DNA of 64,000 bases from Chloroflexota bacterium. GTDB lineage: Bacteria; Chloroflexota; Dehalococcoidia; Tepidiformales; Tepidiformaceae. A program made the translations under genes and the position numbers. The notes under the pieces are model-generated. The model was given only the letters and a program-made list of their open reading frames with translations, searched no databases and was not told where the DNA came from. Every line of letters starts with the position of its first letter. Position 1 is the first letter of the stretch. Shown here piece after piece: positions 7,852 through 63,988 of the stretch. The stretch is taken from positions 62,001 through 126,000 of the forward strand of contig JAPPAK010000002.1 of NCBI GenBank assembly GCA_026705605.1, given 5' to 3'.

Positions 7852-8625
7852 TCAGGGCGCCAGCGCCGCGATCTCTCGCAGCGCCTGCTCGCGCGGGGTT
7901 CCGGAAGCGGCGAACAGGAGCAGCTCCCCCGTCGGGCCATCTGGCCCGTGCGCGAGCACGTTCAGGGCGCCCTGCGCGATGTCCGCCGGCATGATCTCCG
8001 CCGGGCTGTCGTGCGTCGCCCGGAACATGGGCGAGTCCGTCGCGCCCATGCAGAGCGCGTTCACGCGGATGTTGTGCGGCTTCAGCTCGACCGCCCACGT
8101 CTCCGTCAGCCGCGCCTGCGCGAATTTCGCCGCGTCGTAGCCGGTAGCCGCCGCCAGACCCGTGATCAGGTGCCCCTCGTGCACATGCTCGGTGATGACG
8201 TTGAGGATGTTGCCCCCGCCCGCCGCCTGCATCGAGGGCACCGCCGCCATCGCGCAGTAGTAGCTCCCCAGCGCGCAGATGTCCATCGAGTCCTCGAACG
8301 CCTTGGCCTGCGACTCGTACGAGCCCGACGTGAGCGACGTGTCGACCCAGATCGCGGCGTTGTTCACGAGGATGTCGATCCGCCCGAAGCGCTGCACGAC
8401 GCTGTTCATCGCCCGCCGCACCTGCTCCTTGCTCGCAACGTCACAGTCGACCGCGAGCCCGTCCTGCCCCGTCGCCCGTACCTGCCGGATCGTCTCCTGG
8501 TTGCTGAGCGAGTCGATGTCGAGCGAGGCGACGTTCGCCCCCTGTTCCGCGAAGGCAACCGCGAACCCGCGCCCGATCCCCTCGGCCCCACCTGTGACGA
8601 CTGCCACCTGTCCTTCGAGTTGCAT
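7852..8625 (-). CDS. Short-chain dehydrogenase/reductase with altered catalytic serine position
   Basis: 257-residue classical SDR. The cofactor motif is VVTGGAEGIGRGF near residue 10, followed by an acidic DIDSL after strand 2, which favours NAD over NADP. NNAAIWV is the structural Asn motif, and YDAAK supplies the active-site Tyr and Lys. Where most SDRs read (I/V)-x-N-(V/I)-S-S, this one reads ILNVITEHVHEG, so the catalytic Ser is replaced by Thr or shifted. It may have low activity or an unusual substrate. It is first gene of a probable two-gene unit with the VOC gene downstream, and divergent from the P450 at 8721. Confidence 0.8.
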   Translation of the reverse strand: MQLEGQVAVVTGGAEGIGRGFAVAFAEQGANVASLDIDSLSNQETIRQVRATGQDGLAVDCDVASKEQVRRAMNSVVQRFGRIDILVNNAAIWVDTSLTSGSYESQAKAFEDSMDICALGSYYCAMAAVPSMQAAGGGNILNVITEHVHEGHLITGLAAATGYDAAKFAQARLTETWAVELKPHNIRVNALCMGATDSPMFRATHDSPAEIMPADIAQGALNVLAHGPDGPTGELLLFAASGTPREQALREIAALAP

Positions 8626-8685
8626 GACATGACCCCCTTGCTTCAGTTCGAGTGAGCGAGCCGATTCTGAGTGATGCGCCCACGC

Positions 8686-8713
8686 TTTGCCAGCAGGCCC
8701 GCCCCGCTAGAAT
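8686..8713 (+). promoter_or_regulatory. Leaderless promoter of the P450 operon
   Basis: TTTGCC (8686-8691), a 16-base spacer and TAGAAT (8708-8713), followed by seven bases (CGTCGGC) and ATG 8721. The spacing puts the transcription start on or one base before the start codon. Confidence 0.55.
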
Positions 8714-8720
8714 CGTCGGC

Positions 8721-10070
8721 ATGCCAGCCTCCGAGCCCGACTTCGACGGCACCCGCCTCTTTGATGCCGACCCGCAGGTGCTCGCTGACCCCCACCCCTT
8801 CTATGAGGCTGCGCGCGAGCGCGGTCCCATCGTGCGTGAGCCCCACTACGGCGTCTTCGTCGTGACGCGCTACGACGACATCCTCGAGATCTCGCAGCGC
8901 ACCGACGACTTTTCCGCGGCCGTCTCCGCCTACGGTCCCTGGGCCGTCGACGTGCTCCCTCAGCGCCCCGAGGGGTGTCCCTTCGGCGAGGCCGATGTGA
9001 GCGACGAGCTTGAGACGTGGCGTGAGGAGACTCCCTTCGGCTTCATCCCCGTGCTGACCGCCGATCCGCCCCGCCACACCGACCTGCGCTCCGTGGCCAA
9101 CCGCCTCTTCACCGCCTCCCGCCAGCAGGAGATCGAGCCCCGCCTCCGCGAGATGGCCGAAGAGATGGCGGACGAGTTCGCCCCCCATGGCGAGGTCGAG
9201 TTCGTCTCGCAGTTCTCCTCGCTCTACCCCTTCTTCGTCATCACCGAGCTCTTCGGCATCCCCCGCGAGGAGCAGGACCGCCTGCGGGAGCAGTTTCGCG
9301 CCCGCAGCGCCGCCGGCACCACCTCGCGGCCGGAGCAGGGCGACAACAGCGCCATGCGCGAAGGTATCCGCAACGCCCGCGCCCCCGGCGCCGCCCCCAC
9401 TGACTCCCTCACCCCCAACGACCGCCAGTTCCTCGACTACATGCGCGACCGCCGCGCCCACCCCCAGAGCGATATCCTCACCCAGATCGCCACCGCCCGC
9501 TTCCGCGACGGCACGCTCCCCGAGCTTGAGGAGCTCGTCGAGGTCTCCAGCGTCGTCTACGGCGCGGGCAACGGCACCACCACCGACCTGCTCACGAACG
9601 CCATGCAGCTCCTCGCCGAGCAACCCGAACTCCAGGACCGCCTGCGTACCGAACCCGCCGAGATACCTGCCTTCATCGACGAGGTGCTCCGCTTCGCCTC
9701 ACCCGTGCAGGGCCTCTTCCGCTACGCGAAGCGCGACGCCGTCGTCGATGGCGTCGAGATTCCCGCCGGCTCCGTCGTCTGGCTCGTCTACGCTGCCGCC
9801 AACCGCGACCCCGAGCGCTTCGAGGAGCCCGCCGAATTCGATCCGCAGCGCGAGAACGCGCGCCACAGCGTCGCCTTCGGCCACGGCCCCCACTTCTGCC
9901 CCGGTCAGCCCCTCGCCCGCCTTGAGGGACGGCTTGCCTTCGAGACACTGCTGGCCCGCATGGGCGACATCCGCATCGACGAAGCGGAGTTCGAGCCGCG
10001 CTGGCCCGCCTGGTACGTCGTGCGCGGTCTCGAATCCCTCCCCCTTACCTTCACCCCCCTCCACTCATGA
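8721..10070 (+). CDS. Cytochrome P450
   Basis: 449-residue soluble bacterial P450, a monooxygenase needing an external ferredoxin and reductase. The I-helix oxygen-activation motif is YGAGNGTTTDL. The E-x-x-R of helix K is EVLR, and the haem loop is FGHGPHFCPGQPLAR with the thiolate Cys. A ~25-residue insertion after helix B (VDVLPQRPEGCPFGEADVSDE) would sit near the substrate channel. No redox partner gene lies nearby. Its TGA overlaps the methyltransferase start by four bases (ATGA), so translation is coupled and the two probably modify the same compound. Start ATG 8721 fits the leaderless promoter; upstream residues are not P450-like. Confidence 0.9.
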   Translation: MPASEPDFDGTRLFDADPQVLADPHPFYEAARERGPIVREPHYGVFVVTRYDDILEISQRTDDFSAAVSAYGPWAVDVLPQRPEGCPFGEADVSDELETWREETPFGFIPVLTADPPRHTDLRSVANRLFTASRQQEIEPRLREMAEEMADEFAPHGEVEFVSQFSSLYPFFVITELFGIPREEQDRLREQFRARSAAGTTSRPEQGDNSAMREGIRNARAPGAAPTDSLTPNDRQFLDYMRDRRAHPQSDILTQIATARFRDGTLPELEELVEVSSVVYGAGNGTTTDLLTNAMQLLAEQPELQDRLRTEPAEIPAFIDEVLRFASPVQGLFRYAKRDAVVDGVEIPAGSVVWLVYAAANRDPERFEEPAEFDPQRENARHSVAFGHGPHFCPGQPLARLEGRLAFETLLARMGDIRIDEAEFEPRWPAWYVVRGLESLPLTFTPLHS

Positions 10071-50292: not shown

Positions 50293-52734
50293 ATGTATTC
50301 CGTTAGAACGCTCCCATATCTCGCTCTCGTGTCGGTAGCTGCGCTCCTGGCCCTGCTCGTGGTCGCCTGCGGCGGCGATGAAGAGGGGGCCACCCCCGAG
50401 CCCACGGCCGCGCCCGCCACCGAGGCTGCTGCGACCGAAGCCCCGCCCCCCGACGAGGCAGTGGAGCTCCACATCGGTGTCGTCCTCCCCGAGACCGGCG
50501 CCCTCGGCTTCCTCAATCCGCCGATGATCGAGTCCGTCCGCTTGGCCGTCGCCGACATCCTCGAAGCCGGTGGGGCCATCAAGGTGACCTACGCCGATAC
50601 CGGCACCAATCCCGATGTCGCCACCGAGTCGGTCAACCGCCTCCTGGGTGAGGGCGCCCATGTCATCGTCGGCGCGGCGGCCTCCGGTATCTCCCAGTCA
50701 TTCATCCAGCGCCTCTACGACGAGAAGATCCCGCAGTGTTCTCCCTCCAACACCTCCCCCTCCTTCAGTACCCAGGAGAACGCCGGCTACTACTTCCGCA
50801 CCGTGCCGCCGGATGAGGCAGTCGCTCCCATCATTGCCGACGAGGTTGTCGCCGACGGCGGCACCCGCGTCGCCATCCTCGCCCGCGCCGATGACTACGG
50901 GAACGCACTCGCGAATCTCATGGTGCACGCCCTCAACGAGCTCGGCGCCGAGTCCACCATCATCTCCTTCGACCCCGGCGCCTCGTCTTTCGAGTCCGAG
51001 GTCGCGGCTACCCGCGCATACGGCCCGGACGCCATCGTCCACATCTCCTTCGAAGAGGGCGTCAGCATCATCCGCGGACTCCTTGAGGCCGGGTTCGGTC
51101 CGGAGACCCAGTACGCCGCCGACGGGCTCTTCTTCCCTACCCTCTGGGAGCTCATCGACCCGAACGACCCCAACGTGCTCGATGGCATGAAGCTCATCGG
51201 CGCCAGCGGGTCCAGGGAGTTCAACGAGCGCCTCGGCACGATCACGGGCGGCAACCTCATCTATGGCGGTCAGTCGTACGACTGCGTCGTATTGCTCGTT
51301 CTGGCCTCGGAAGCAGCGGGCAGCACGGATGGCGATGCCATCATCGAGGCGCTTGCCACCCTTACCGACGGCGGCACCGAGTGCCGCAGCTACGCCGACT
51401 GTTCCGCGCTCCTTGCCGAGGGCGAGAACATCGACTACGTCGGCGTCAGCGGTCCGCTCAACCTCGACGAGGTCGGCGACCCCACGGTCGGCAACTACGC
51501 CATCGCCCAGTTCCAGGACGGCGTCCTTGTCGCCGTCGGCGACAAGGAAAGCCATCTCGGCGATCTCGTCGCCGCGGCCGCGCCTGCGCCAACCGAGGCC
51601 GCGCCTGCCAGTCCCAGCCTCCACATCGGCGTCATCCTTCCGGAGACGGGGGCGCTTGGTGAATACGGGGTTCCCATGATCGCCTCCGTACGCCTCGCAA
51701 TCGAGGACATCATTGCCGGAGGCGGCAACGTCGAGGTGACCTACGCCGACAGTGGCACCGATCCCGACGTTGCGGGTGAGTCCGTCAACCGGCTGCTTGG
51801 AGAGGGCGCCCACGTCATCGTCGGGGCGGCCGCATCCGGCATCTCGCAGTCCTTCATCCAGAAGCTCTACGACGAGCGCATTCCCCAGTGCTCGCCATCG
51901 AACACCTCGCCGTCGTTCACCGGTCAGGCGAATGCCGGCTACTACTTCCGTACCGCTCCATCCGACGCCATCGTCGCCCCCGTCATCGCCGACACGATCG
52001 TGAGCGAAGGCGGGACGCGCGTCGCCATCCTCGCTCGCGCCGACGACTACGGCGTGGCCCTCCGTGACCTCGTCGACAACGCCCTCCAGAGCGTCGGCGC
52101 TGAAACCAGCATCACGACGTACGACCCCAACAGCACCGTCTTCAGCGCGGAGGTTGAGGCCGTCAAGAGCTACGGTCCCGATGCCATCCTGCTCATCAGC
52201 TTCATCCCCGACGGCTCCAGCCTCGTCCGCGGCCTGCTCGAGGCCGGCTTCTCCCCGGGCATGATGTATGGCTCCGATGGCATGCACACCCCCACGCTCT
52301 GGGAGAGCGTTGACGCCTCCAGCCCCGAGGTGCTCGACGGCCTCACGCTCTTTGTCGCGACGGGTCCCGCCATCCCCGCCTACGAGGAGTTCAACGCCCG
52401 CCTCGCCGAGGTTTCGGAAGGCAACTTCGTCTTCGGCGCCCAGTCGTACGACTGCACGGTCATTCTGGCCCTCGCGTCCCGTGCCGCCGGCAGCACGGAC
52501 GGCGACGACATCATCGCCGCCGTTAGCGCCGTCACCCGCGACGGGACGGAGTGCACGACCTACGGGGAGTGCGCGGCCCTTATCGATGGCGGGCAGGACG
52601 TGGCCTACGTCGGCAAGGTCGGCAGCCTCAAGCTCGATGACGGGGGCGACCCCACCGTCGCGACCTACAAGGTGAGCCGTTTCGAGGGTAGCGATCTCGT
52701 CGAGCAAATCACCGTCTTCGACCTCAGCCGCTAG
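50293..52734 (+). CDS. Double-domain branched-chain amino acid/amide-type substrate-binding lipoprotein
   Basis: 813 residues, about twice the usual size. Lipobox LVVAC (Cys26) after a hydrophobic signal, then a Pro/Thr/Ala/Glu linker. Two complete LivJ-type (peripla_BP_6) domains follow in tandem: residues ~59-430 and ~443-813, offset 384 residues (1152 bases), joined by PAPTEAAPASPS. Each copy begins LHIGV(V/I)LPETGALG and contains GEGAHVIVGAAASGISQSFI, IPQCSPSNTSPSF, GYYFRT and GGTRVAILARADDYG. The codons of the two copies differ widely at silent sites, so the duplication is old and kept by selection. It should bind two ligands, or one ligand with cooperativity, for a Liv-type importer. 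It converges on livHMGF, which lacks its own binding-protein gene. Confidence 0.85.
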   Translation: MYSVRTLPYLALVSVAALLALLVVACGGDEEGATPEPTAAPATEAAATEAPPPDEAVELHIGVVLPETGALGFLNPPMIESVRLAVADILEAGGAIKVTYADTGTNPDVATESVNRLLGEGAHVIVGAAASGISQSFIQRLYDEKIPQCSPSNTSPSFSTQENAGYYFRTVPPDEAVAPIIADEVVADGGTRVAILARADDYGNALANLMVHALNELGAESTIISFDPGASSFESEVAATRAYGPDAIVHISFEEGVSIIRGLLEAGFGPETQYAADGLFFPTLWELIDPNDPNVLDGMKLIGASGSREFNERLGTITGGNLIYGGQSYDCVVLLVLASEAAGSTDGDAIIEALATLTDGGTECRSYADCSALLAEGENIDYVGVSGPLNLDEVGDPTVGNYAIAQFQDGVLVAVGDKESHLGDLVAAAAPAPTEAAPASPSLHIGVILPETGALGEYGVPMIASVRLAIEDIIAGGGNVEVTYADSGTDPDVAGESVNRLLGEGAHVIVGAAASGISQSFIQKLYDERIPQCSPSNTSPSFTGQANAGYYFRTAPSDAIVAPVIADTIVSEGGTRVAILARADDYGVALRDLVDNALQSVGAETSITTYDPNSTVFSAEVEAVKSYGPDAILLISFIPDGSSLVRGLLEAGFSPGMMYGSDGMHTPTLWESVDASSPEVLDGLTLFVATGPAIPAYEEFNARLAEVSEGNFVFGAQSYDCTVILALASRAAGSTDGDDIIAAVSAVTRDGTECTTYGECAALIDGGQDVAYVGKVGSLKLDDGGDPTVATYKVSRFEGSDLVEQITVFDLSR

Positions 52735-52760
52735 GCTCAGGCCGGAACGGCAAGCACCTT

Positions 52761-52790
52761 CGGAAGGGGCGTTTCCCGGCGCCCCTTCCG
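52761..52790. terminator. Hairpin terminator shared by converging transcripts
   Basis: CGGAAGGGGCG (52761-52771) and CGCCCCTTCCG (52780-52790) pair over 11 bp around TTTCCCGG. It lies between the double binding-protein stop (52734) and the livF stop (52799). No long U-run, so strength is moderate. Confidence 0.6.
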
Positions 52791-52798
52791 TGCGTGTG

Positions 52799-53539
52799 TC
52801 AGTCGCGCGCTCTGGCGCTGAGCGAACCCAAATACAGCTCGACGACGCGCTCGTCGTTCAGGAGCTCTTCACCGGGGCCGGTGTAAGCGTTGCGCCCCTG
52901 GTCGAGCACGTACCCGCGGTGCGCAACCTGCAGGCAGCGGCGGGCGTTCTGCTCCACCATCAGCACCGACACCCCCGCCCGGTTCACCTCCAGCACCTGC
53001 TCGAACACCTGCTCCTGGTACCGGGGCGAGAGGCCCGCCGAGGGCTCGTCCAGCAGCAGCACCGAGGGGCTCATCATCAGGGCGCGGCCCATCGCCAGCA
53101 TCTGCCGCTCGCCGCCCGAGAGCGCCCCCGCCCGCTGCCCCGCCCGCTCCGCCAGTAACGGGAACAGCGCCGCCACCGTCTCGAACCGCTCCTCCCATGC
53201 TCTCGGCTCCAGGAACAGGCCCATCTCGAGGTTCTCCCGCACGCTTAGCCGGGGGAACACGTTGTCCGTCTGCGGGACGTACCCGATGCCTTCGGTCACG
53301 AGCGAGTGCGGCTTCAGACCCAGGATCGAACGGCCCCGCAGCAGCACGTCCCCCTCCCACACCTCCACCAGCCCGAACGCTGCCTTCAGGAGCGTCGACT
53401 TCCCCGCCCCGTTCGGCCCCACGATGCCCGAGATCTCGCCCTCGAACAGGCTCAGGCTGCAGTTGTTCAGGATGGGCACGCCCGGCAGGTAGCCCGCCAC
53501 CAGCGACCGCGCCTCCAGCAGCGGCCTCGCCTCAGGCAT
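52799..53539 (-). CDS. livF: Branched-chain amino acid-type ABC transporter ATPase LivF
   Basis: 246-residue ATPase. Walker A GIVGPNGAGKST, Q-loop YVPQTDNVFP, signature LSGGERQ, Walker B VLLLDEPSAGLSP and the switch His replaced in context by VEQNARRCL (LivF-typical Q). It energises import by LivH and LivM with LivG. Start ATG 53539 is chosen because GGAAGGGG precedes it and the frame overlaps the livG stop by eight bases. It is last gene of the operon. Confidence 0.9.
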   Translation of the reverse strand: MPEARPLLEARSLVAGYLPGVPILNNCSLSLFEGEISGIVGPNGAGKSTLLKAAFGLVEVWEGDVLLRGRSILGLKPHSLVTEGIGYVPQTDNVFPRLSVRENLEMGLFLEPRAWEERFETVAALFPLLAERAGQRAGALSGGERQMLAMGRALMMSPSVLLLDEPSAGLSPRYQEQVFEQVLEVNRAGVSVLMVEQNARRCLQVAHRGYVLDQGRNAYTGPGEELLNDERVVELYLGSLSARARD

Positions 53540-54401
53540 CCCCTTCCTCCTCCCCGTCCGCCGTGTCGCGAGGCCGGCCCAGGTAGGCATCGATAACCTC
53601 TTCGTTCGCGACGACCTCCTGCGGCGGCCCCTCCGTGAGGATTCGGCCCTGCGCCATCACCACCACCCAGTCGCTGATGTCCATCACCACGTCCATGTTG
53701 TGCTCGACGAACACGATCGTGACGCCCTCGGCGTTCAGATCGCGGATGTGCTCCAGGAGCGATTCCGTCAGCGCCGGGTTCACGCCCGCCGTCGGCTCGT
53801 CGAGCATCACCAGCGTGGGGTCCGCCATCAGCGCCCGCGCCATCTCCAGCAGCTTTCGCTGCCCGCCCGAGAGCGTCCCCGCCTGATCGCCCGCCATGTG
53901 CGCGAGCCCGAAGCGCTCCAGCAACGCCTGCGCCCGCTCCCGTACGCGCGCCTCCTCCGGCTGCCAGAGCCAGCGCAGGAGCGCCCGCTCGAGCCGCTCC
54001 CCGCGCTGCGTCTGCGCCGCCACCGCCATGTTCTCCAGCACTGTCAGCCGCGAGAGCGACTTGGTGAGCTGGAACGTGCGCACCATCCCCAGCCGCGCGA
54101 TGCGGTGCGGCGGCAATCCACCGAGCAGCCGCCCGTCCAGCCGCCACGAACCCCTGTCCGGCCGGTCGAACCCCGTCAGGAGGTTGAAGAGTGTCGTCTT
54201 CCCCGCCCCGTTCGGTCCGATGATCGCCGTGATCGTCCCCCGCTCGATCTCCAGGTGGTCGATGTCGACCGCGCGGATGCCCCCGAACGTCTTCAGCATC
54301 CCGAACGTGATCAGGATCGGGTCGTCCTTCAGCCTCCCCGGAGGGGCCGCTTCGAGCGCCGCCTGCGTCAGCTCTGGCCGGATGGTCGTCGCGCCGCTCA
54401 T
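53532..54401 (-). CDS. livG: Branched-chain amino acid-type ABC transporter ATPase LivG
   Basis: 289 residues. Walker A IIGPNGAGKTT, signature LSGGQRK, Walker B VMLDEPTAGVNP, and switch His in FVEHNMDVV. The long, about 60-residue, insertion region with HRIARLGMVRTFQLTKSL is the LivG-specific segment after the Q-loop. An extra 25-residue N-terminal extension (SGATTIRPELTQAALEAAPPG) is unstructured. ATG 54401 overlaps the livM stop by four bases (ATGA). Confidence 0.9.
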   Translation of the reverse strand: MSGATTIRPELTQAALEAAPPGRLKDDPILITFGMLKTFGGIRAVDIDHLEIERGTITAIIGPNGAGKTTLFNLLTGFDRPDRGSWRLDGRLLGGLPPHRIARLGMVRTFQLTKSLSRLTVLENMAVAAQTQRGERLERALLRWLWQPEEARVRERAQALLERFGLAHMAGDQAGTLSGGQRKLLEMARALMADPTLVMLDEPTAGVNPALTESLLEHIRDLNAEGVTIVFVEHNMDVVMDISDWVVVMAQGRILTEGPPQEVVANEEVIDAYLGRPRDTADGEEEGDA

Positions 54402-55393
54402 GTCCCCAGGTGCAGGCTCCTGCGTCTCCCGAAGATGCCCTGCGGCCGGAGCGCCATCAGCGCGACCAGCCCGATGCCCATCAGTACGATGCTGATCGCT
54501 CCCTCTGCGCCGTCAAGGAAGTCCGCGAGGGCGTTCGGGAGCCAGCCCTGCTCCGATAACTCGCGGATGAACGACTCAACCCCCTCCCGCAGGAACCAGA
54601 ACAGCACGGCTCCCACCACCGGCCCCACGGTCGTCGCCAGCCCGCCCAGGATCAGTGCCGCCCACGCAAAGAACGTCACCTGCGGCTCGAAGTTCTCCGA
54701 CCCCACTCCCGACTGCTGCAGCGCGTCGATGACCCCCGCCAGCCCCCCGATGACGCCCCCGATGACGAGCGCCTGGAGCTTGTACGCCACCGTGTTCTTC
54801 CCGAGGCTCAGCACGGCGTCCTCGTCCTCCCGGATCGCCCGCACCACCCGCCCCCAGGGGCTGCGGATCAGCGCCAGCACGAGCGCTGAGCAGAGGACCA
54901 CCAGGATCCAGGCGACGATCATCACCCACAGCTGGTTCGACGAGTAGCTGAACGTGCCCCAGCCGAAGCGCCCGTCCGGAAGGAAGTTCAGGTCGAAGAA
55001 GCTGTTCGCGATCGCCTGCAGCCCGAAAGGCCCGCCCGTGATGTCCGTCGCGGGCGAGGATCGGATCAGGAGCCGCAGGATCTCGGCCGCCGCGATCGTC
55101 GTGATGGCGAAGTAGTCGCTGCGCAGCCGCAGCGTGGGGATGCCCAGCGCCAGCGCGAACGCGACGCATAGCCCCAGACCGAACGGAATCCCCAGCCAGA
55201 GCGACCCGCCCCATGTCGCCACCACGATCGCGGTGCCGTAGGCGCCCAGCATCATGAACCCGACCTGCCCGAAGTTGAGCAGGCCCGCGTAGCCGAAGTG
55301 CAGGTTCAGCCCGATCGCCGCCAGCGCGAAGATCGCCGCCTGCGGCCCCAGCCCCGCCCGGGCGGCGTTCCCGAAGATGATGTCGAAGTCCAT
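54398..55393 (-). CDS. livM: Branched-chain amino acid-type ABC permease LivM
   Basis: 331-residue permease with eight to ten helices. Landmarks are AIGLNLHFGYAGLLNFGQVGFMMLGAY (LivM signature), LRLRSDYFAITTIAAAEILRLLI, and the ATPase-coupling loop SPWGRVVRAIREDEDAVLSLGKNTVAYK. It ends LMALRPQGIFGRRRSL. It forms a heterodimer with LivH. The start codon follows the livH stop with no gap (stop 55394-55396, start 55393), so translation is coupled. Confidence 0.9.
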   Translation of the reverse strand: MDFDIIFGNAARAGLGPQAAIFALAAIGLNLHFGYAGLLNFGQVGFMMLGAYGTAIVVATWGGSLWLGIPFGLGLCVAFALALGIPTLRLRSDYFAITTIAAAEILRLLIRSSPATDITGGPFGLQAIANSFFDLNFLPDGRFGWGTFSYSSNQLWVMIVAWILVVLCSALVLALIRSPWGRVVRAIREDEDAVLSLGKNTVAYKLQALVIGGVIGGLAGVIDALQQSGVGSENFEPQVTFFAWAALILGGLATTVGPVVGAVLFWFLREGVESFIRELSEQGWLPNALADFLDGAEGAISIVLMGIGLVALMALRPQGIFGRRRSLHLGT

Positions 55394-56674
55394 CTAGCCG
55401 ATCCGTTCCCGCTGGCCGAGGATTCCCTGGGGCCGCACCAGCAAAGCCAGCACCAGCACACCCAGTGCGAACACCGCTTTGATCTCCGGGCTTGCCCACA
55501 CCGTGCTCACTTCCGTCACCAGCCCGATCAGGAGCCCGCCCACCATCGCCCCGTAGGCCGTCCCCAGCCCGCCCAGCACCACCGCCGCGAACATGAGCAG
55601 CAACAGCCGGAACCCCATCAGCCAGTCCACTGCCTCCACCGACCCGAAGAACACGCCTCCGACCGCCGCGAGCGCGGCCCCCGCCACCCACACGACCAGG
55701 ACGACCCGGTCGACGTCGATACCGGACGACTCCGCCAGCTCGGGATTGTCGGCGACCGCCCGGATCGCCTTCCCGGTGCGCGCACGCTGCAGGAACACCG
55801 CCACCCCGATGAGGATGACCGCGGAGAGCGCCATGATCGTGAAGTCCCGCGGGGTCACCGCAAACGGCCCGAACGTCCACTCCGCCTGGAGCGCGTAGTC
55901 GATGTAGCGTTCCCTGTCCGGCCCGAAGAACAGCAGCATCACGTGCCGCGCGAGCAGCGACAGACCGATCGTGACCACCATGAACTGGAACATCCCGAGC
56001 CGCCGCGCCCGGAGCGGCCGTAACAGCGAGAACTCGACACCTCCTCCCGCCGCCCCCGCGACCACCACCGCCAGCACCCCCGCGAGGATGAGGGGCGCGC
56101 CGAACGTGTCCGCGTTGAAGTACCACGCGAGGATCGCCCCCAGCGTCACCAGCTCCCCGTGCGCGAAATTGATGAGCCCCGTCAGCCCGAAGATGAGCGA
56201 CAACCCGATCGCGCACATCGCAATGATCAGGCCGAACTTGACCCCGTTCAGGACCGCCTGTGCGAGCTTCTCGCCGACGTTTGGTCCGCGGCTCACCGGC
56301 TCGCCCAGAGCGAAGATCAACGGCCGTGAGCGTCCCGCCGTGACCGTTACCTCCAGGGTTTGCCGCTCCGGGTCACGGAGGGTCACTCCCTCGGGCAGCG
56401 TGTCCGTGTCGATCGTCGCCCGGTACGTCCCCGGACCCGGCAGCTCGATGCGCCAGCGCCCGTCCGCCCCCGTCACCGCCTCCCCAACCGCCTCGCCGTT
56501 GGCGCCGACCACGGAGATCCGTACGCCCTCGACCGGTTCGCCGCCGAAACGCAGCGTTCCCGAGAACGCTTCGCCCTCGCCGTCCTGGGCCTGCGCCGAG
56601 CCAAAGAGGAAGAGCGAAAGGACCGCCACCGCCACCAGCGCAACCACACTCCGCAGCGAGCGGGCGTTCGACAA
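55394..56674 (-). CDS. livH: LivH-type ABC permease with an exported N-terminal beta-sandwich domain
   Basis: 426 residues, about 130 longer than ordinary LivH. Residues 1-30 form a signal-like segment (VVALVAVAVLSLFLFGSAQAQ). Residues ~36-122 have the pattern of a carboxypeptidase-regulatory/transthyretin-like Ig fold: FSGTLRFGGEPVEGVRISVVGANGE, then GEAVTGADGRWRIELPGPGTYRATID and the strand LEVTVTAGRSRPLIFAL. The permease follows from ~135 (LIFGLTGLINFAHGELVTLGA is the LivH signature; coupling loop TGKAIRAVADNPELAESSGID). The domain would sit outside the membrane, ideally placed to touch the binding protein. The start is TTG 56674 with GGGAAGGGG upstream and a TATACT -10 at 56728-56723. Confidence 0.85.
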   Translation of the reverse strand: MSNARSLRSVVALVAVAVLSLFLFGSAQAQDGEGEAFSGTLRFGGEPVEGVRISVVGANGEAVGEAVTGADGRWRIELPGPGTYRATIDTDTLPEGVTLRDPERQTLEVTVTAGRSRPLIFALGEPVSRGPNVGEKLAQAVLNGVKFGLIIAMCAIGLSLIFGLTGLINFAHGELVTLGAILAWYFNADTFGAPLILAGVLAVVVAGAAGGGVEFSLLRPLRARRLGMFQFMVVTIGLSLLARHVMLLFFGPDRERYIDYALQAEWTFGPFAVTPRDFTIMALSAVILIGVAVFLQRARTGKAIRAVADNPELAESSGIDVDRVVLVVWVAGAALAAVGGVFFGSVEAVDWLMGFRLLLLMFAAVVLGGLGTAYGAMVGGLLIGLVTEVSTVWASPEIKAVFALGVLVLALLVRPQGILGQRERIG

Positions 56675-60536: not shown

Positions 60537-62723
60537 TTAACCCTGGGCCGGGACCTCTTCCGTGGCGGCCGCCGTTTCGGCCGGCCGCTCCAGCGGCAGT
60601 TCGATGATCATCTCGGTGTATTCGCCCGGTTCCGTGTCCACGGTGATAGTCCCGCCGTGCCTGCGAACGATGTCGCTCGAGAGCGACAGCCCCAGACCCG
60701 TGCCCTGGTCCGTCGGCTTGGTCGTGAAGAAGGGGTTGAAAATCTTCTCCGCAACCTCCGGCGGCATCCCCGTGCCGTTGTCCTTGATCCGAACTTCGAT
60801 GTGGTCCTCAAGGCGCTTGGTGCTCAGCCAGATGGTCGGCGTGTAGGGCCCGCCCACCACATCGGCTCCCGGCGTCGCTGCGCGCCGCTCGTTCGTCGCG
60901 TAGCACGCGTTGCTCACCATGTTGAGGAAGACGCGGCCGAGGTCCTGGGGGATGACTTCCATCTCGCCTGCATTCGGGTCGTACTCGTCCTTCAGGTCCA
61001 GTTGGAAGTCCGAATCTGTTGCGCGCGCGCTGTGGTAGGCCAACTTCGCGTGCTCATCGAGCAGCCCATTAATGTCGCTCATCTGCCACTCCCCCGATCC
61101 CCGTCCCATCCGCAGCATGTTCTCGACGATGCGGTTCGCCCGCTGTCCGTGCGACTGGATCCGCTCGAGGTTATCCGTCAGGTCGCCCGTTATCTCCTCG
61201 ACGTACGACTGCTGCTCCTCGCTCAGATTCACACCATCCTCCTCCAGCACTTCCTGCAGCTCGGTCAGAAGCTCGCCCGAGACCTCGGAGAAGTTGTTCA
61301 CGAAGTTCAGGGGGTTCCGGATCTCGTGGGCCACGCCCGCCGTCAGCTCGCCCAGCGCCGCCAGCTTCTCCCGCATCACGATCTGGTCCTGGGCCTTATT
61401 CAGCTCACCCAGCGTGCTCTCCAGCTCCACGTTCTTCTCCTGCAGCTCGTTCGCCAGCTCCTCCACCAGGTTCAGCCGCTGAACCTCGAGCGCGTGCCGC
61501 CGGAACACTTCGAGCGCGGCCGCCATGTCCGCGACCTCGTCCCGCCCCTCCATCTCCACGCTCGTCTCGATGTCCCCGCCGGCCATCCGCCGCATCCAGT
61601 CCGTGAGCAGGTTCAAGCGGCGCAGGAGGATCCTGCCCAGGTAGAGCCAGATGATGAGCACCGCCCCGACCACGCTCACCGCGCTGATGACGAGCAGAAG
61701 CGTGCGGCCCGTGAAGATTGCCGAGGAGGAGGCCTCGGTGGCATCCGCCGCGCTCGCCTGCGCCGCCATCACCAGCCCGTCCACCTCTGCCACCAGGTCG
61801 ATCGAGAGGTCGCGGTTGCTCGCCAGCAACTCCGACTGGCGGGCCTCGATCCGGAGCTCCTGCTCGAAGAGGCCAAACACGCTCCCTCCACCGAGGCCCA
61901 GGGCGAACAACCGATCGAAGACCGGCGTGGCGGCGGTATGGAAGTCGGTTCCCCGTTCCGTTCCCAGGTTCCGCTCAATGCGGTTCCGCGCGGCTTCGAA
62001 GCGCTCCCGCAGCGGCTCGACCAATGAGGCGTCCGACAACGTGAATGCGTTCGCCAGAAGCTCCGTCGCGATGTTCACGTCCCCCTGCAACTCGCTCAGC
62101 CGTCGGTAGCGGACGACTTCCTGCTCGGCGAAGTGTTGCGAGCGGGGCGCAGCCGAGTCGTCGAGGTCGATGAATCCGGTCAGCACGAAGAAGAACTGGT
62201 CGTCGATCGCCGGCGCCAGCAGGTCGTCCAGCTCGAACCGCACCTGCGTCAGCTCTTCCTGCAGTCCCTCCAGGCGCGTCCGCAAGTCGAACACGCCCGC
62301 TGTTTCGCTCCGCAGCTCGTTGATATTGGAGATGAGTGTGTCCGAGTACGTGCGGATCCGGGCCACCCGCGCCTGGTCCGTGTCCCTCTTGGCCTCCAGC
62401 GTGAGCAGCTGCTCTTCGAAAGACGTGTAGGCGGCGTCGATGCTCTGAACGACCTGCGCGAACTCCTCCGGCGTCGAGGCTGCCGTCAGGTTCGGCGCCG
62501 CCGCCACCAGGACGCCGGTGTCCCGCGCGACGCCGAACGACGCCGCAAGCTCGGGCACGCTTCCCTCGTTCACGCGGCTCTGAACGGTTCCCACGCGGTC
62601 GAAGGAGAACCAGCCGACGAGACTCGCTGCCAGCGTGAGCACCACCGCTCCCCCGACGGCCAGGTAGAGCTGCGTCGAGATACGGAACCGGCTGTCCACT
62701 ATCTGCTTTAGTCGTTCAACCAC
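60537..62723 (-). CDS. Sensor histidine kinase with large extracytoplasmic helical domain (TorS-like)
   Basis: 728 residues. TM1 about 18-39, a ~300-residue extracytoplasmic all-helical region (40-340), TM2 341-363, HAMP ~363-415, coiled coil 415-450, then HisKA with His466 in GVAHEIRNPLNF. The ATPase domain (~555-715) has N box NMVSNACYA, G1 DNGTGMP, F box FFTTKPT and G2 GTGLGLS. There is no receiver or phosphotransfer domain and no response regulator gene in the window. The GTG start at 62723 lies inside the end of the binding-protein gene (16-base overlap), so the two are co-translated. The overall plan matches TorS, which senses through a periplasmic binding protein. Confidence 0.87.
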   Translation of the reverse strand: MVERLKQIVDSRFRISTQLYLAVGGAVVLTLAASLVGWFSFDRVGTVQSRVNEGSVPELAASFGVARDTGVLVAAAPNLTAASTPEEFAQVVQSIDAAYTSFEEQLLTLEAKRDTDQARVARIRTYSDTLISNINELRSETAGVFDLRTRLEGLQEELTQVRFELDDLLAPAIDDQFFFVLTGFIDLDDSAAPRSQHFAEQEVVRYRRLSELQGDVNIATELLANAFTLSDASLVEPLRERFEAARNRIERNLGTERGTDFHTAATPVFDRLFALGLGGGSVFGLFEQELRIEARQSELLASNRDLSIDLVAEVDGLVMAAQASAADATEASSSAIFTGRTLLLVISAVSVVGAVLIIWLYLGRILLRRLNLLTDWMRRMAGGDIETSVEMEGRDEVADMAAALEVFRRHALEVQRLNLVEELANELQEKNVELESTLGELNKAQDQIVMREKLAALGELTAGVAHEIRNPLNFVNNFSEVSGELLTELQEVLEEDGVNLSEEQQSYVEEITGDLTDNLERIQSHGQRANRIVENMLRMGRGSGEWQMSDINGLLDEHAKLAYHSARATDSDFQLDLKDEYDPNAGEMEVIPQDLGRVFLNMVSNACYATNERRAATPGADVVGGPYTPTIWLSTKRLEDHIEVRIKDNGTGMPPEVAEKIFNPFFTTKPTDQGTGLGLSLSSDIVRRHGGTITVDTEPGEYTEMIIELPLERPAETAAATEEVPAQG

Positions 62724-63988
62724 TCTGTCTCTCGCAGTGCCTCGATCTCGCGGAGTGATTCAATAGCATGGTACTGCTCGCCGGGCCCGATGACTGTCAG
62801 GAATACCCTGTCCGACCCCTGGTTGTCATCTGCCCCGTACTGCAGCGCGAACCCCTCGATGTCGAACGCATCCGCCTCACGGAGGCTGTTCAGGAAGCAC
62901 TCCCGGTCCAGATTCCGCCCGCAGCGCTCAAGTCCCGCGATGGCGAGCCGGCCGGCGAGATAGCCCTCGAGCGACACGAACCCCGGTGTCACGTCGGGCG
63001 CGTATGCCGCCAGCGCTCGCTGGTACGCCGCCACAACCGCCAGCGAGTCGTCCTCCGGGAAGGGCACCACCTGTGTCACCAGCACACCGACGCCATCGGA
63101 CCCCAGCTCCTGCGCCAGCGCGTTGCTGCCGACGAACGAGACGTTCAGGAAGAGCGCGTCCGACCCAAGCCGCTTGGCCCACTTGATAAACGTCGCCATC
63201 GGCTCGTAGGCGCCGATCATGATCACCGCCTCGGGGTCGTTCTCCAGCAGGTCGAGCACGGCCGCCTTCACCGCCGAGGTGTTGCGTGTGTAGCGCCCCA
63301 CGGCCACCGCCTCGCTGCCCCGCCGGGCCAGCGCCTGCTGCACGCCGTCGTACCCGCTCCGCCCGTACGAGTCGTCCTGGTACAGGATCCCGATCCGCTC
63401 GATGCCAAGGTCGGCCCTCAGCCGCTCAACCATCTCCTCGGTCTCCTGCGCGTAGGACGCGCGCAGGTTGATGATGTTGCTCCACTCCGGATCCCGGAGG
63501 AAGCCGGCCCCCGTGAAGGGCGCGATGTAGGGAGCGCCCGCTGCAAAGGCGATCGGCGTGGCCGAGCGGGACGTGGGCGTTCCCACCGCGCCGATCAGGG
63601 CAAACACGCCCTCGCCGATGAGCTGCTGCGTGTTGGCGATCGCCGCCTCCGGTTCATACGCGTCGTCCAGCGATTTCAACTCGATCCGGCGTCCGTGCAC
63701 GCCGCCGTTCTCGTTCGCCTCGTGGAACGCGGCCTCGATCCCGAGGCGCATGTTCGTGCCGAGCGCCGATGCTGGTCCGCTGAACGCCGCCGACTGCCCG
63801 AAGAGCACCCGGTCCTCGAACACTCCCGGAGTACCCCTGTCGATCGCCTCGGTAGCAGTCGCGGTGGCGGTCACCGTGCCCGCGTCGTCGTCGCCGCCCC
63901 CCGAGCAGCCGAGCCCTATGAGAGACCCGATCAGGAGAGAACAGACGCCTGCCAGCCAGGCGACGCGTACGGACCGCGATCGCCTCAT
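62708..63988 (-). CDS. LivJ/TorT-like substrate-binding lipoprotein coupled to the histidine kinase
   Basis: 426 residues. Signal with lipobox LIGLGC (Cys28), an Asp/Thr-rich linker, and one peripla_BP_6 fold: LFGQSAAFSGPASALGTNMRLGIEAAFHEANENGGVHGR in segments, QLIGEGVFALIGAVGTPTS, IGILYQDDSYGRSGYDGV, GFVSLEGYLAGRLAIAGLERCG. It resembles amino acid or amide binding proteins, yet no permease is adjacent. The 16-base overlap with the kinase gene indicates a sensor role: ligand-bound protein signalling to the kinase's outside domain. The start ATG 63988 leaves only 12 bases of the window upstream. Confidence 0.87.
   Translation of the reverse strand: MRRSRSVRVAWLAGVCSLLIGSLIGLGCSGGGDDDAGTVTATATATEAIDRGTPGVFEDRVLFGQSAAFSGPASALGTNMRLGIEAAFHEANENGGVHGRRIELKSLDDAYEPEAAIANTQQLIGEGVFALIGAVGTPTSRSATPIAFAAGAPYIAPFTGAGFLRDPEWSNIINLRASYAQETEEMVERLRADLGIERIGILYQDDSYGRSGYDGVQQALARRGSEAVAVGRYTRNTSAVKAAVLDLLENDPEAVIMIGAYEPMATFIKWAKRLGSDALFLNVSFVGSNALAQELGSDGVGVLVTQVVPFPEDDSLAVVAAYQRALAAYAPDVTPGFVSLEGYLAGRLAIAGLERCGRNLDRECFLNSLREADAFDIEGFALQYGADDNQGSDRVFLTVIGPGEQYHAIESLREIEALRETEWLND

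Follow-up and report, generated by a model that had tools for sequence, protein, structure and literature searches.

Two LivJ-type binding domains in one putative lipoprotein receptor encoded beside a LivHMGF-type importer in a Chloroflexota genus

The gene described here raises the question of why a single lipoprotein should carry two complete LivJ-type binding domains, and whether both would serve the importer encoded beside it. In the window (the whole 64,000-nucleotide stretch of Chloroflexota DNA that was analysed, the positions of which are used throughout), 50293–52734 is a single open frame of 813 amino acids on the plus strand, running from an ATG at 50293 to a TAG ending at 52734, with a GGAGG located 5 bases before the ATG. 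The parts of the protein and of the adjoining locus are as follows.

50293..50370, plus strand: signal peptide with lipobox VVA-C, Cys26 being the expected lipid anchor (translation, lipobox scan of homologues, conservation of C26)
50371..50466, plus strand: N-terminal Pro/Ala/Glu linker, residues 27–58 (translation; pLDDT below 50 at residues 1–54)
50467..51567, plus strand: binding domain D1, residues 59–425, Peripla_BP_6, predicted pocket S131, T154, Y202, D277 (Pfam, AlphaFold2, structure alignments)
51568..51618, plus strand: interdomain Pro/Ala linker, residues 426–442 (translation; pLDDT below 50 at residues 426–439)
51619..52731, plus strand: binding domain D2, residues 443–813, Peripla_BP_6, predicted pocket S515, T538, Y586, D662 (Pfam, AlphaFold2, structure alignments)
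52761..52790, unstranded: 13-bp hairpin in the gap between the convergent genes, a possible bidirectional terminator, with no T-run (predicted fold)
52799..53590, minus strand: LivF-type ATPase (ABC_tran; best NCBIfam models UrtE and LivF, under their cut-offs)
53532..54401, minus strand: LivG-type ATPase (ABC_tran and BCA_ABC_TP_C; best NCBIfam model LivG, under its cut-off)
54398..55393, minus strand: LivM-type permease (BPD_transp_2, one of only two in the genome)
55394..56674, minus strand: LivH-type permease, extended at the N-terminus by an export signal and a small domain (BPD_transp_2, the other match in the genome)

Pfam Peripla_BP_6 matches the protein in two stretches (2.3e-74, 251.5 bits; cut-off 31.7) and the frame opens with the lipobox V-V-A-C26, whose cysteine is invariant in all ten aligned doubles; the sequence-only reading, which saw two full LivJ-type domains in one lipoprotein, is thus borne out. 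The frame closes at 52734 directly after D2 without a fused transmembrane domain, the permeases being encoded by separate genes on the other strand. In fold, predicted pocket and liv neighbourhood, each half resembles one domain of the LivJ/LivK (HAAT, Peripla_BP_6) proteins; the protein differs from these in joining two such domains in one lipoprotein, in having four conserved cysteines per domain, and in scoring 104.1 bits against PRK15404, the NCBIfam model of the high-affinity branched-chain LivJ subfamily, under its curated cut-off of 477.

The AlphaFold2 model, for which an alignment of ten doubles served as input, comprises two folded domains connected by the low-confidence interdomain linker (mean pLDDT 79.1, pTM 0.50); given the linker confidence and the pTM, the mutual position of the halves is not fixed in the model. 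The best PDB match by Foldseek was LivK (3td9; TM-score 0.84 by target length), followed by 3hut, 4n0q (a leucine complex by title) and other LivJ-type structures. Each half is accordingly modelled as a type I periplasmic-binding-protein fold, which by the same search is also that of aromatic-acid receptors.

A Ser/Thr, a Thr, a Tyr and an acid are found at matching places when either half is aligned with 4n0q and 3td9, and for D2 only when the comparison is with LBP (2lbp), whose ligand contacts we take to be S79, T102, Y150 and E226. Ser131, Thr154, Tyr202 and Asp277 of D1, and Ser515, Thr538, Tyr586 and Asp662 of D2, fall at these contact positions, the acid being an Asp in both halves, as in 3td9, and not a Glu. 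As judged from these alignments, both predicted pockets retain amino-acid-binding residues. Two loops differ between the halves, residues 253–258 (FEEGVS) of D1 versus 637–643 (FIPDGSS) of D2, and 272–282 (TQYAADGLFFP) versus 657–667 (MMYGSDGMHTP), and both would be expected to face the ligand side chain. Cys149, Cys331, Cys364 and Cys370, together with their D2 counterparts, are invariant in 23 of 23 aligned domains, which suggests disulphides; to our knowledge, LivJ proteins in general are without these four cysteines.

The gene lies tail to tail with livF-G-M-H, livF lying 64 bases downstream on the opposite strand, and is preceded by a tyrosine-phosphatase-family gene and a luciferase-like monooxygenase gene. 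The fold of the intervening region (52735–52812) has a z of −3.98, and none of 200 shuffles was as stable; the hairpin was not among the sites called in a scan for promoters and terminators, which found 0 promoters and 3 terminator-like sites where 2.2 were expected. None of the Liv proteins reaches the cut-off of its best NCBIfam model, and the substrate could therefore be something other than a branched-chain amino acid. The genome, 94.4% complete, has no BPD_transp_2 matches other than LivM and LivH, whilst six Peripla_BP_6 domains are present in five proteins; with one permease pair for five such proteins, several receptors are probably served by one importer. Across the genus, BPD_transp_2 matches number two in seven of nine genomes, those of G002 lying on separate contigs; of the other two genomes, G008 has neither BPD_transp_2 nor Peripla_BP_6, and G007 has no BPD_transp_2, its contig ending inside the receptor gene. 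The small N-terminal domain of LivH matches CarboxypepD_reg at 31.0 bits, just below the cut-off of 32.3. Comparable N-terminal extensions are seen in several actinobacterial LivH proteins (e.g. L058, L066 and L078), also beside single-domain receptors, and the LivH of L090 is shorter, without such an extension.

Elsewhere in the window a single LivJ-like lipoprotein gene (62708–63988, minus strand) overlaps the start of a HAMP/HisKA/HATPase histidine kinase gene (60537–62723, minus strand), the two likely forming a ligand-sensing pair. At a comparable distance, some 10 kb, Peripla_BP_6 genes accompany the double in G005, G001 and G006 and the single-domain gene in G003.

The silent and replacement divergence of the halves, which the sequence-only reading had proposed to compute, was obtained by NG86 over 365 aligned codons (D1, residues 59–431; D2, residues 443–813) and amounts to dN 0.316 and dS 0.947 (dN/dS ~0.33), indicating purifying selection. 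Residues are identical at 223 of the 365 positions and codons at only 130. The stretches it had quoted as identical in protein with silently differing codons are present; in the best-conserved block, 28 of 30 residues are identical and 10 codons differ silently. Silent differences at identical residues are spread evenly (52/116 in the first 150 aligned codons, 41/107 in the rest), which gives no sign of recent gene conversion and indicates that the identical protein stretches reflect constraint rather than recent copying. Four further assemblies of the genus (G006, G005, G001 and G004) contain the same double frame as the genome studied here (G000), with dN of 0.31–0.34 and dS of 0.47–1.03 between the halves, lowest in G004. 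With the frame in all of these assemblies, of which that of G004 is one contig of 2.40 Mb, an assembly artefact is very unlikely. The few stretches identical in protein between the halves are what could be said for an artefact or a recent in-place duplication, to which, with a dS of ~0.95 and the double in five assemblies including a one-contig chromosome, we assign a negligible probability; the earlier view of the tandem as old and not artefactual is upheld.

We consider, with a probability of roughly 0.72, that the protein works as a two-site, lipid-anchored receptor of the LivHMGF-type amino-acid importer whose genes converge on its own. Each half, a complete and flexibly linked LivJ-like domain, would close around an amino-acid-like ligand; the halves would dock in turn on the same LivHM permease and would probably differ in side-chain preference, such that two tethered, differently tuned receptors would feed one LivHMGF importer, in the manner of GlnPQ but unfused. 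The ligand class, the docking of both halves, their different specificities and a retuning of the importer to the local amino-acid supply through replacement of receptor alleles are elements that we infer; kept pocket residues combined with differing side-chain loops favour two working sites of unlike preference, and the two-ligand idea is plausible from the loop differences. Several observations count against the two-site reading: G002 and G003 evidently manage with one domain, the receptor gene stands outside the liv operon, to which it is convergent, and the LivJ-like lipoprotein next to the histidine kinase indicates that such proteins can have other partners.

As proposed here for the double, more than one receptor domain serves a single ABC importer in GlnPQ and OpuA, where the SBDs are fused to the membrane domain; the tandem described here is instead a separate lipoprotein. 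The GlnPQ SBDs belong to SBP_bac_3 and those of OpuA to another family. In excerpts from work on GlnPQ, its two SBDs differ in ligand specificity, and the authors remark that, with two SBDs to each membrane domain, four sites lie close to one pathway and compete for docking (PMC8025302). The latter point fits the possible, on balance unlikely, alternative that both halves bind the same ligand and that fusion only raises receptor number near the permease, as do the predicted pocket residues kept in both halves and the high identity of D1 and D2 around residues 119–148; however, the loops expected to face the ligand side chain differ, and D1 groups with other paralogues and not with D2, which suggests separate histories.

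It appears improbable that D1 has lost ligand binding and serves as a spacer or docking module: it is absent from the single-domain alleles and has the lower Pfam score (118.1 versus 142.7 bits for D2), but its predicted pocket residues are kept in all five doubles of the genus and it is constrained, with dN/dS of 0.05–0.06 among G000, G006 and G005. More improbable still is a sensory role, in which the protein or one half would pass ligand information to a signalling partner instead of serving the permease. The lipoprotein gene overlapping the kinase gene provides a parallel for it, and Pfam ANF_receptor also matches the double protein; on the other side, the double adjoins livFGMH in all five doubles of the genus, and its immediate neighbours here are the phosphatase-family gene and livF.

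In the domain tree, D2 shares a clade with the allelic single-domain proteins of G002 and G003 (100/100), and D1 is grouped with single-domain paralogues of the genus (95/91). D1 being nearer to the genome's single-domain paralogues than to D2, the tandem is not a simple in-place duplication. Clade tests on 31 of 80 rows (the long-branch row G003_C2 and 48 others were left out), the p values of which, like those of the other clade tests given below, presume groups named beforehand, whilst several were named after a first tree, rejected a clade of D1, D2 and the allelic singles without the paralogues (AU p 0.0039) and disfavoured the five D1 domains as one clade (p 0.014), D1 of G001 being nearer one paralogue; the five D2 domains as one clade without the singles gave p 0.035, in a weak test. 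On these trees the double was probably made by joining paralogues, or else the paralogues derive from D1 as shed copies; a loss of D1 is faintly suggested for the single alleles. The 'duplication' proposed from the sequence is too simple, given the grouping of D1 and the rejected clade.

A GTDB scan with a profile of the doubles returned 78 loci, a sample biased towards doubles that does not measure prevalence. Proteins holding two domains of at least 300 residues occur at 23 of these (4 in this genus, 4 in Acidimicrobiia and 15 in other Chloroflexota, of which 5 are from f21 genomes); at 50, no protein exceeds one such domain, and 5 are without any. Matches spanning both domains were found in at least 7 of 400 drawn Chloroflexota genomes, at least 3 of them in family f81, with at most two candidates scored per genome. 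Doubles also occur in Acidimicrobiia MAGs (4), in a second group of Dehalococcoidia and in a further family of Chloroflexota, as a search for the same architecture in other genomes, suggested earlier, was able to reveal. Those of Acidimicrobiia (L058, L059, L060 and L063), Dehalococcoidia (e.g. L090 and L101) and f81 (L147–L149) likewise have two Peripla_BP_6 domains and adjacent liv-type genes, and the Acidimicrobiia doubles are convergent to livFGMH in four of four; they differ in their separate positions, doubles including those of f81 falling on four branches of the domain tree, and in that many lie in arrays with one to four single-domain genes. A common clade of genus and Acidimicrobiia halves is rejected (p 1e-46 for D1, p 1e-116 for D2), and with it a shared origin of the two sets of doubles. 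The double architecture is uncommon but recurrent: a free, lipid-anchored double is unusual, as had been remarked, but not a one-off. No relative of the double protein was found in viral contigs, and among the papers listed from the openly licensed PMC literature (titles and abstract openings) there was work on GlnPQ and OpuA, but no paper on a free tandem LivJ protein. LivF is 64–69% identical to that of several Acidimicrobiia/Nitriliruptoria loci and 40–46% to that of the second Dehalococcoidia group, so that the importer system may have come from an actinobacterial relative.

Certain candidates were rejected on inspection. Long frames in G313 and G239 (905 and 928 aa), taken for doubles, are neighbouring single-domain genes, these frames having been read across stop codons, and apparent triple-domain proteins in L059, L060 and L063, suggested by match length, are two single genes and one double.

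Within the genus, the double is present in five of nine genomes (so the close relatives do not all carry two separate genes), a complete single-domain gene occupies the same site in G002 and G003, G007 has the start of a single-domain gene, truncated where the contig ends, and G008 gave no match to the receptor. The earlier description of the tandem as 'maintained' agrees with the purifying selection, but does not extend to these last four genomes. The receptor gene is convergent to the liv genes in all five doubles and both complete singles (the G002 contig ends before livH). These convergent liv genes are kept in the seven genomes where the contig reaches them, and the phosphatase-family gene lies upstream in those seven except G004, where no such match was found. 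In all seven genomes with the locus intact around the gene, a single receptor gene separates livF from the upstream neighbours. The search also covered 29 genomes from the family's other genera, at most six candidates being scored per genome, and none of these gave a match better than 7e-21.

The history of the receptor gene conflicts with that of its flanks. Between G000 and G003, LivM is 99% identical and the flanking genes differ by dN 0.003–0.028 and dS 0.15–0.28, whereas D2 of G000 and the single domain of G003 differ by dN 0.25 and dS 0.89. Between G000 and G001, both halves give dN 0.23 and dS 0.70, and the flanks dN 0.015–0.17 and dS 0.20–0.47. The single domain of G003 differs from that of the more distant G002 by dN 0.029 and dS 0.43 (flanks, dN 0.024–0.12 and dS 0.44–0.57). 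In 250-base bins, identity falls at ~50201 and is back by ~52951 for both G003 and G001, that of G001 being reduced already over the phosphatase-family gene. A tree built from five flanking genes (4497 columns, of which G007 fills 41%) places G003 with G000 and G006 (100/99), whilst the D2 tree places G003 with G002 and G007 (100/100) and G000 and G006 with G005 (100/100). The flanks reject both {G002, G003, G007} (p 1.4e-11) and {G000, G006, G005} (p 1e-76), and D2 rejects {G000, G006, G003} (p 1e-8).

The simplest reading is an exchange of double and single alleles between species, the whole receptor gene having been replaced in at least one lineage after G003 split from G000 and G006. The receptor dS values show no recent transfer, which counts against exchange. 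They also fit a rather doubtful alternative, in which the genus ancestor had several receptor genes here and the species kept different ones, with no movement of alleles between species: alleles from an ancestral array would be old, the receptor dS of G003 and G002 is close to that of their flanks, and that of G000 and G005 (0.74–0.78) is not lower than the flanks. Acidimicrobiia and f21 loci still carry such arrays, of one double and one to four single genes. Set against this, none of the seven intact loci of the genus holds more than one receptor gene, and the losses would need to have been clean and repeated.

Exchange could be part of a broader picture, to which we give somewhat less than an even chance: the receptor gene would be an exchangeable specificity cassette beside livFGMH, with a sponge-associated genus keeping a nearly fixed, unique permease and swapping one- and two-site receptor alleles by recombination in the flanks, and with separate lineages each having built two-site LivJ receptors. 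The range of the importer would then be set by receptor exchange and not by permease change, and amino-acid uptake in dense sponge microbiomes would be retuned by receptor change. The sponge link of the bacterium is presumed from its kin: the jk18x bin series, from which several of these MAGs come going by their names, figures in work on Ircinia sponges that reports livF/G/H/K/M as enriched in five hosts and free amino acids as high in tissue (PMC9531527). For sponge Chloroflexi, branched-chain amino acids are reported among the substrates of many ABC transporters (PMC6306507). With near-identical permeases and one versus two receptor domains at the same locus in closely related species, the alleles constitute a natural experiment on why some importers carry more than one receptor domain; comparing them bears on whether two tandem domains bring breadth, speed or capacity, which has been studied for the permease-fused domains of GlnPQ and OpuA.

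Other arrangements of binding domains were also seen. Adjacent single-domain LivJ-like genes that are 88% identical lie in G004 (L046:7140–8450 and 8434–9735), with no BPD_transp_2 permease alongside. Mixed tandems in one frame comprise Peripla_BP_6 followed by an NMT1-like domain (L084:4707–7109 and L087:221–2572), and SBP_bac_3 followed by Peripla_BP_6 (L067:3801–6140).
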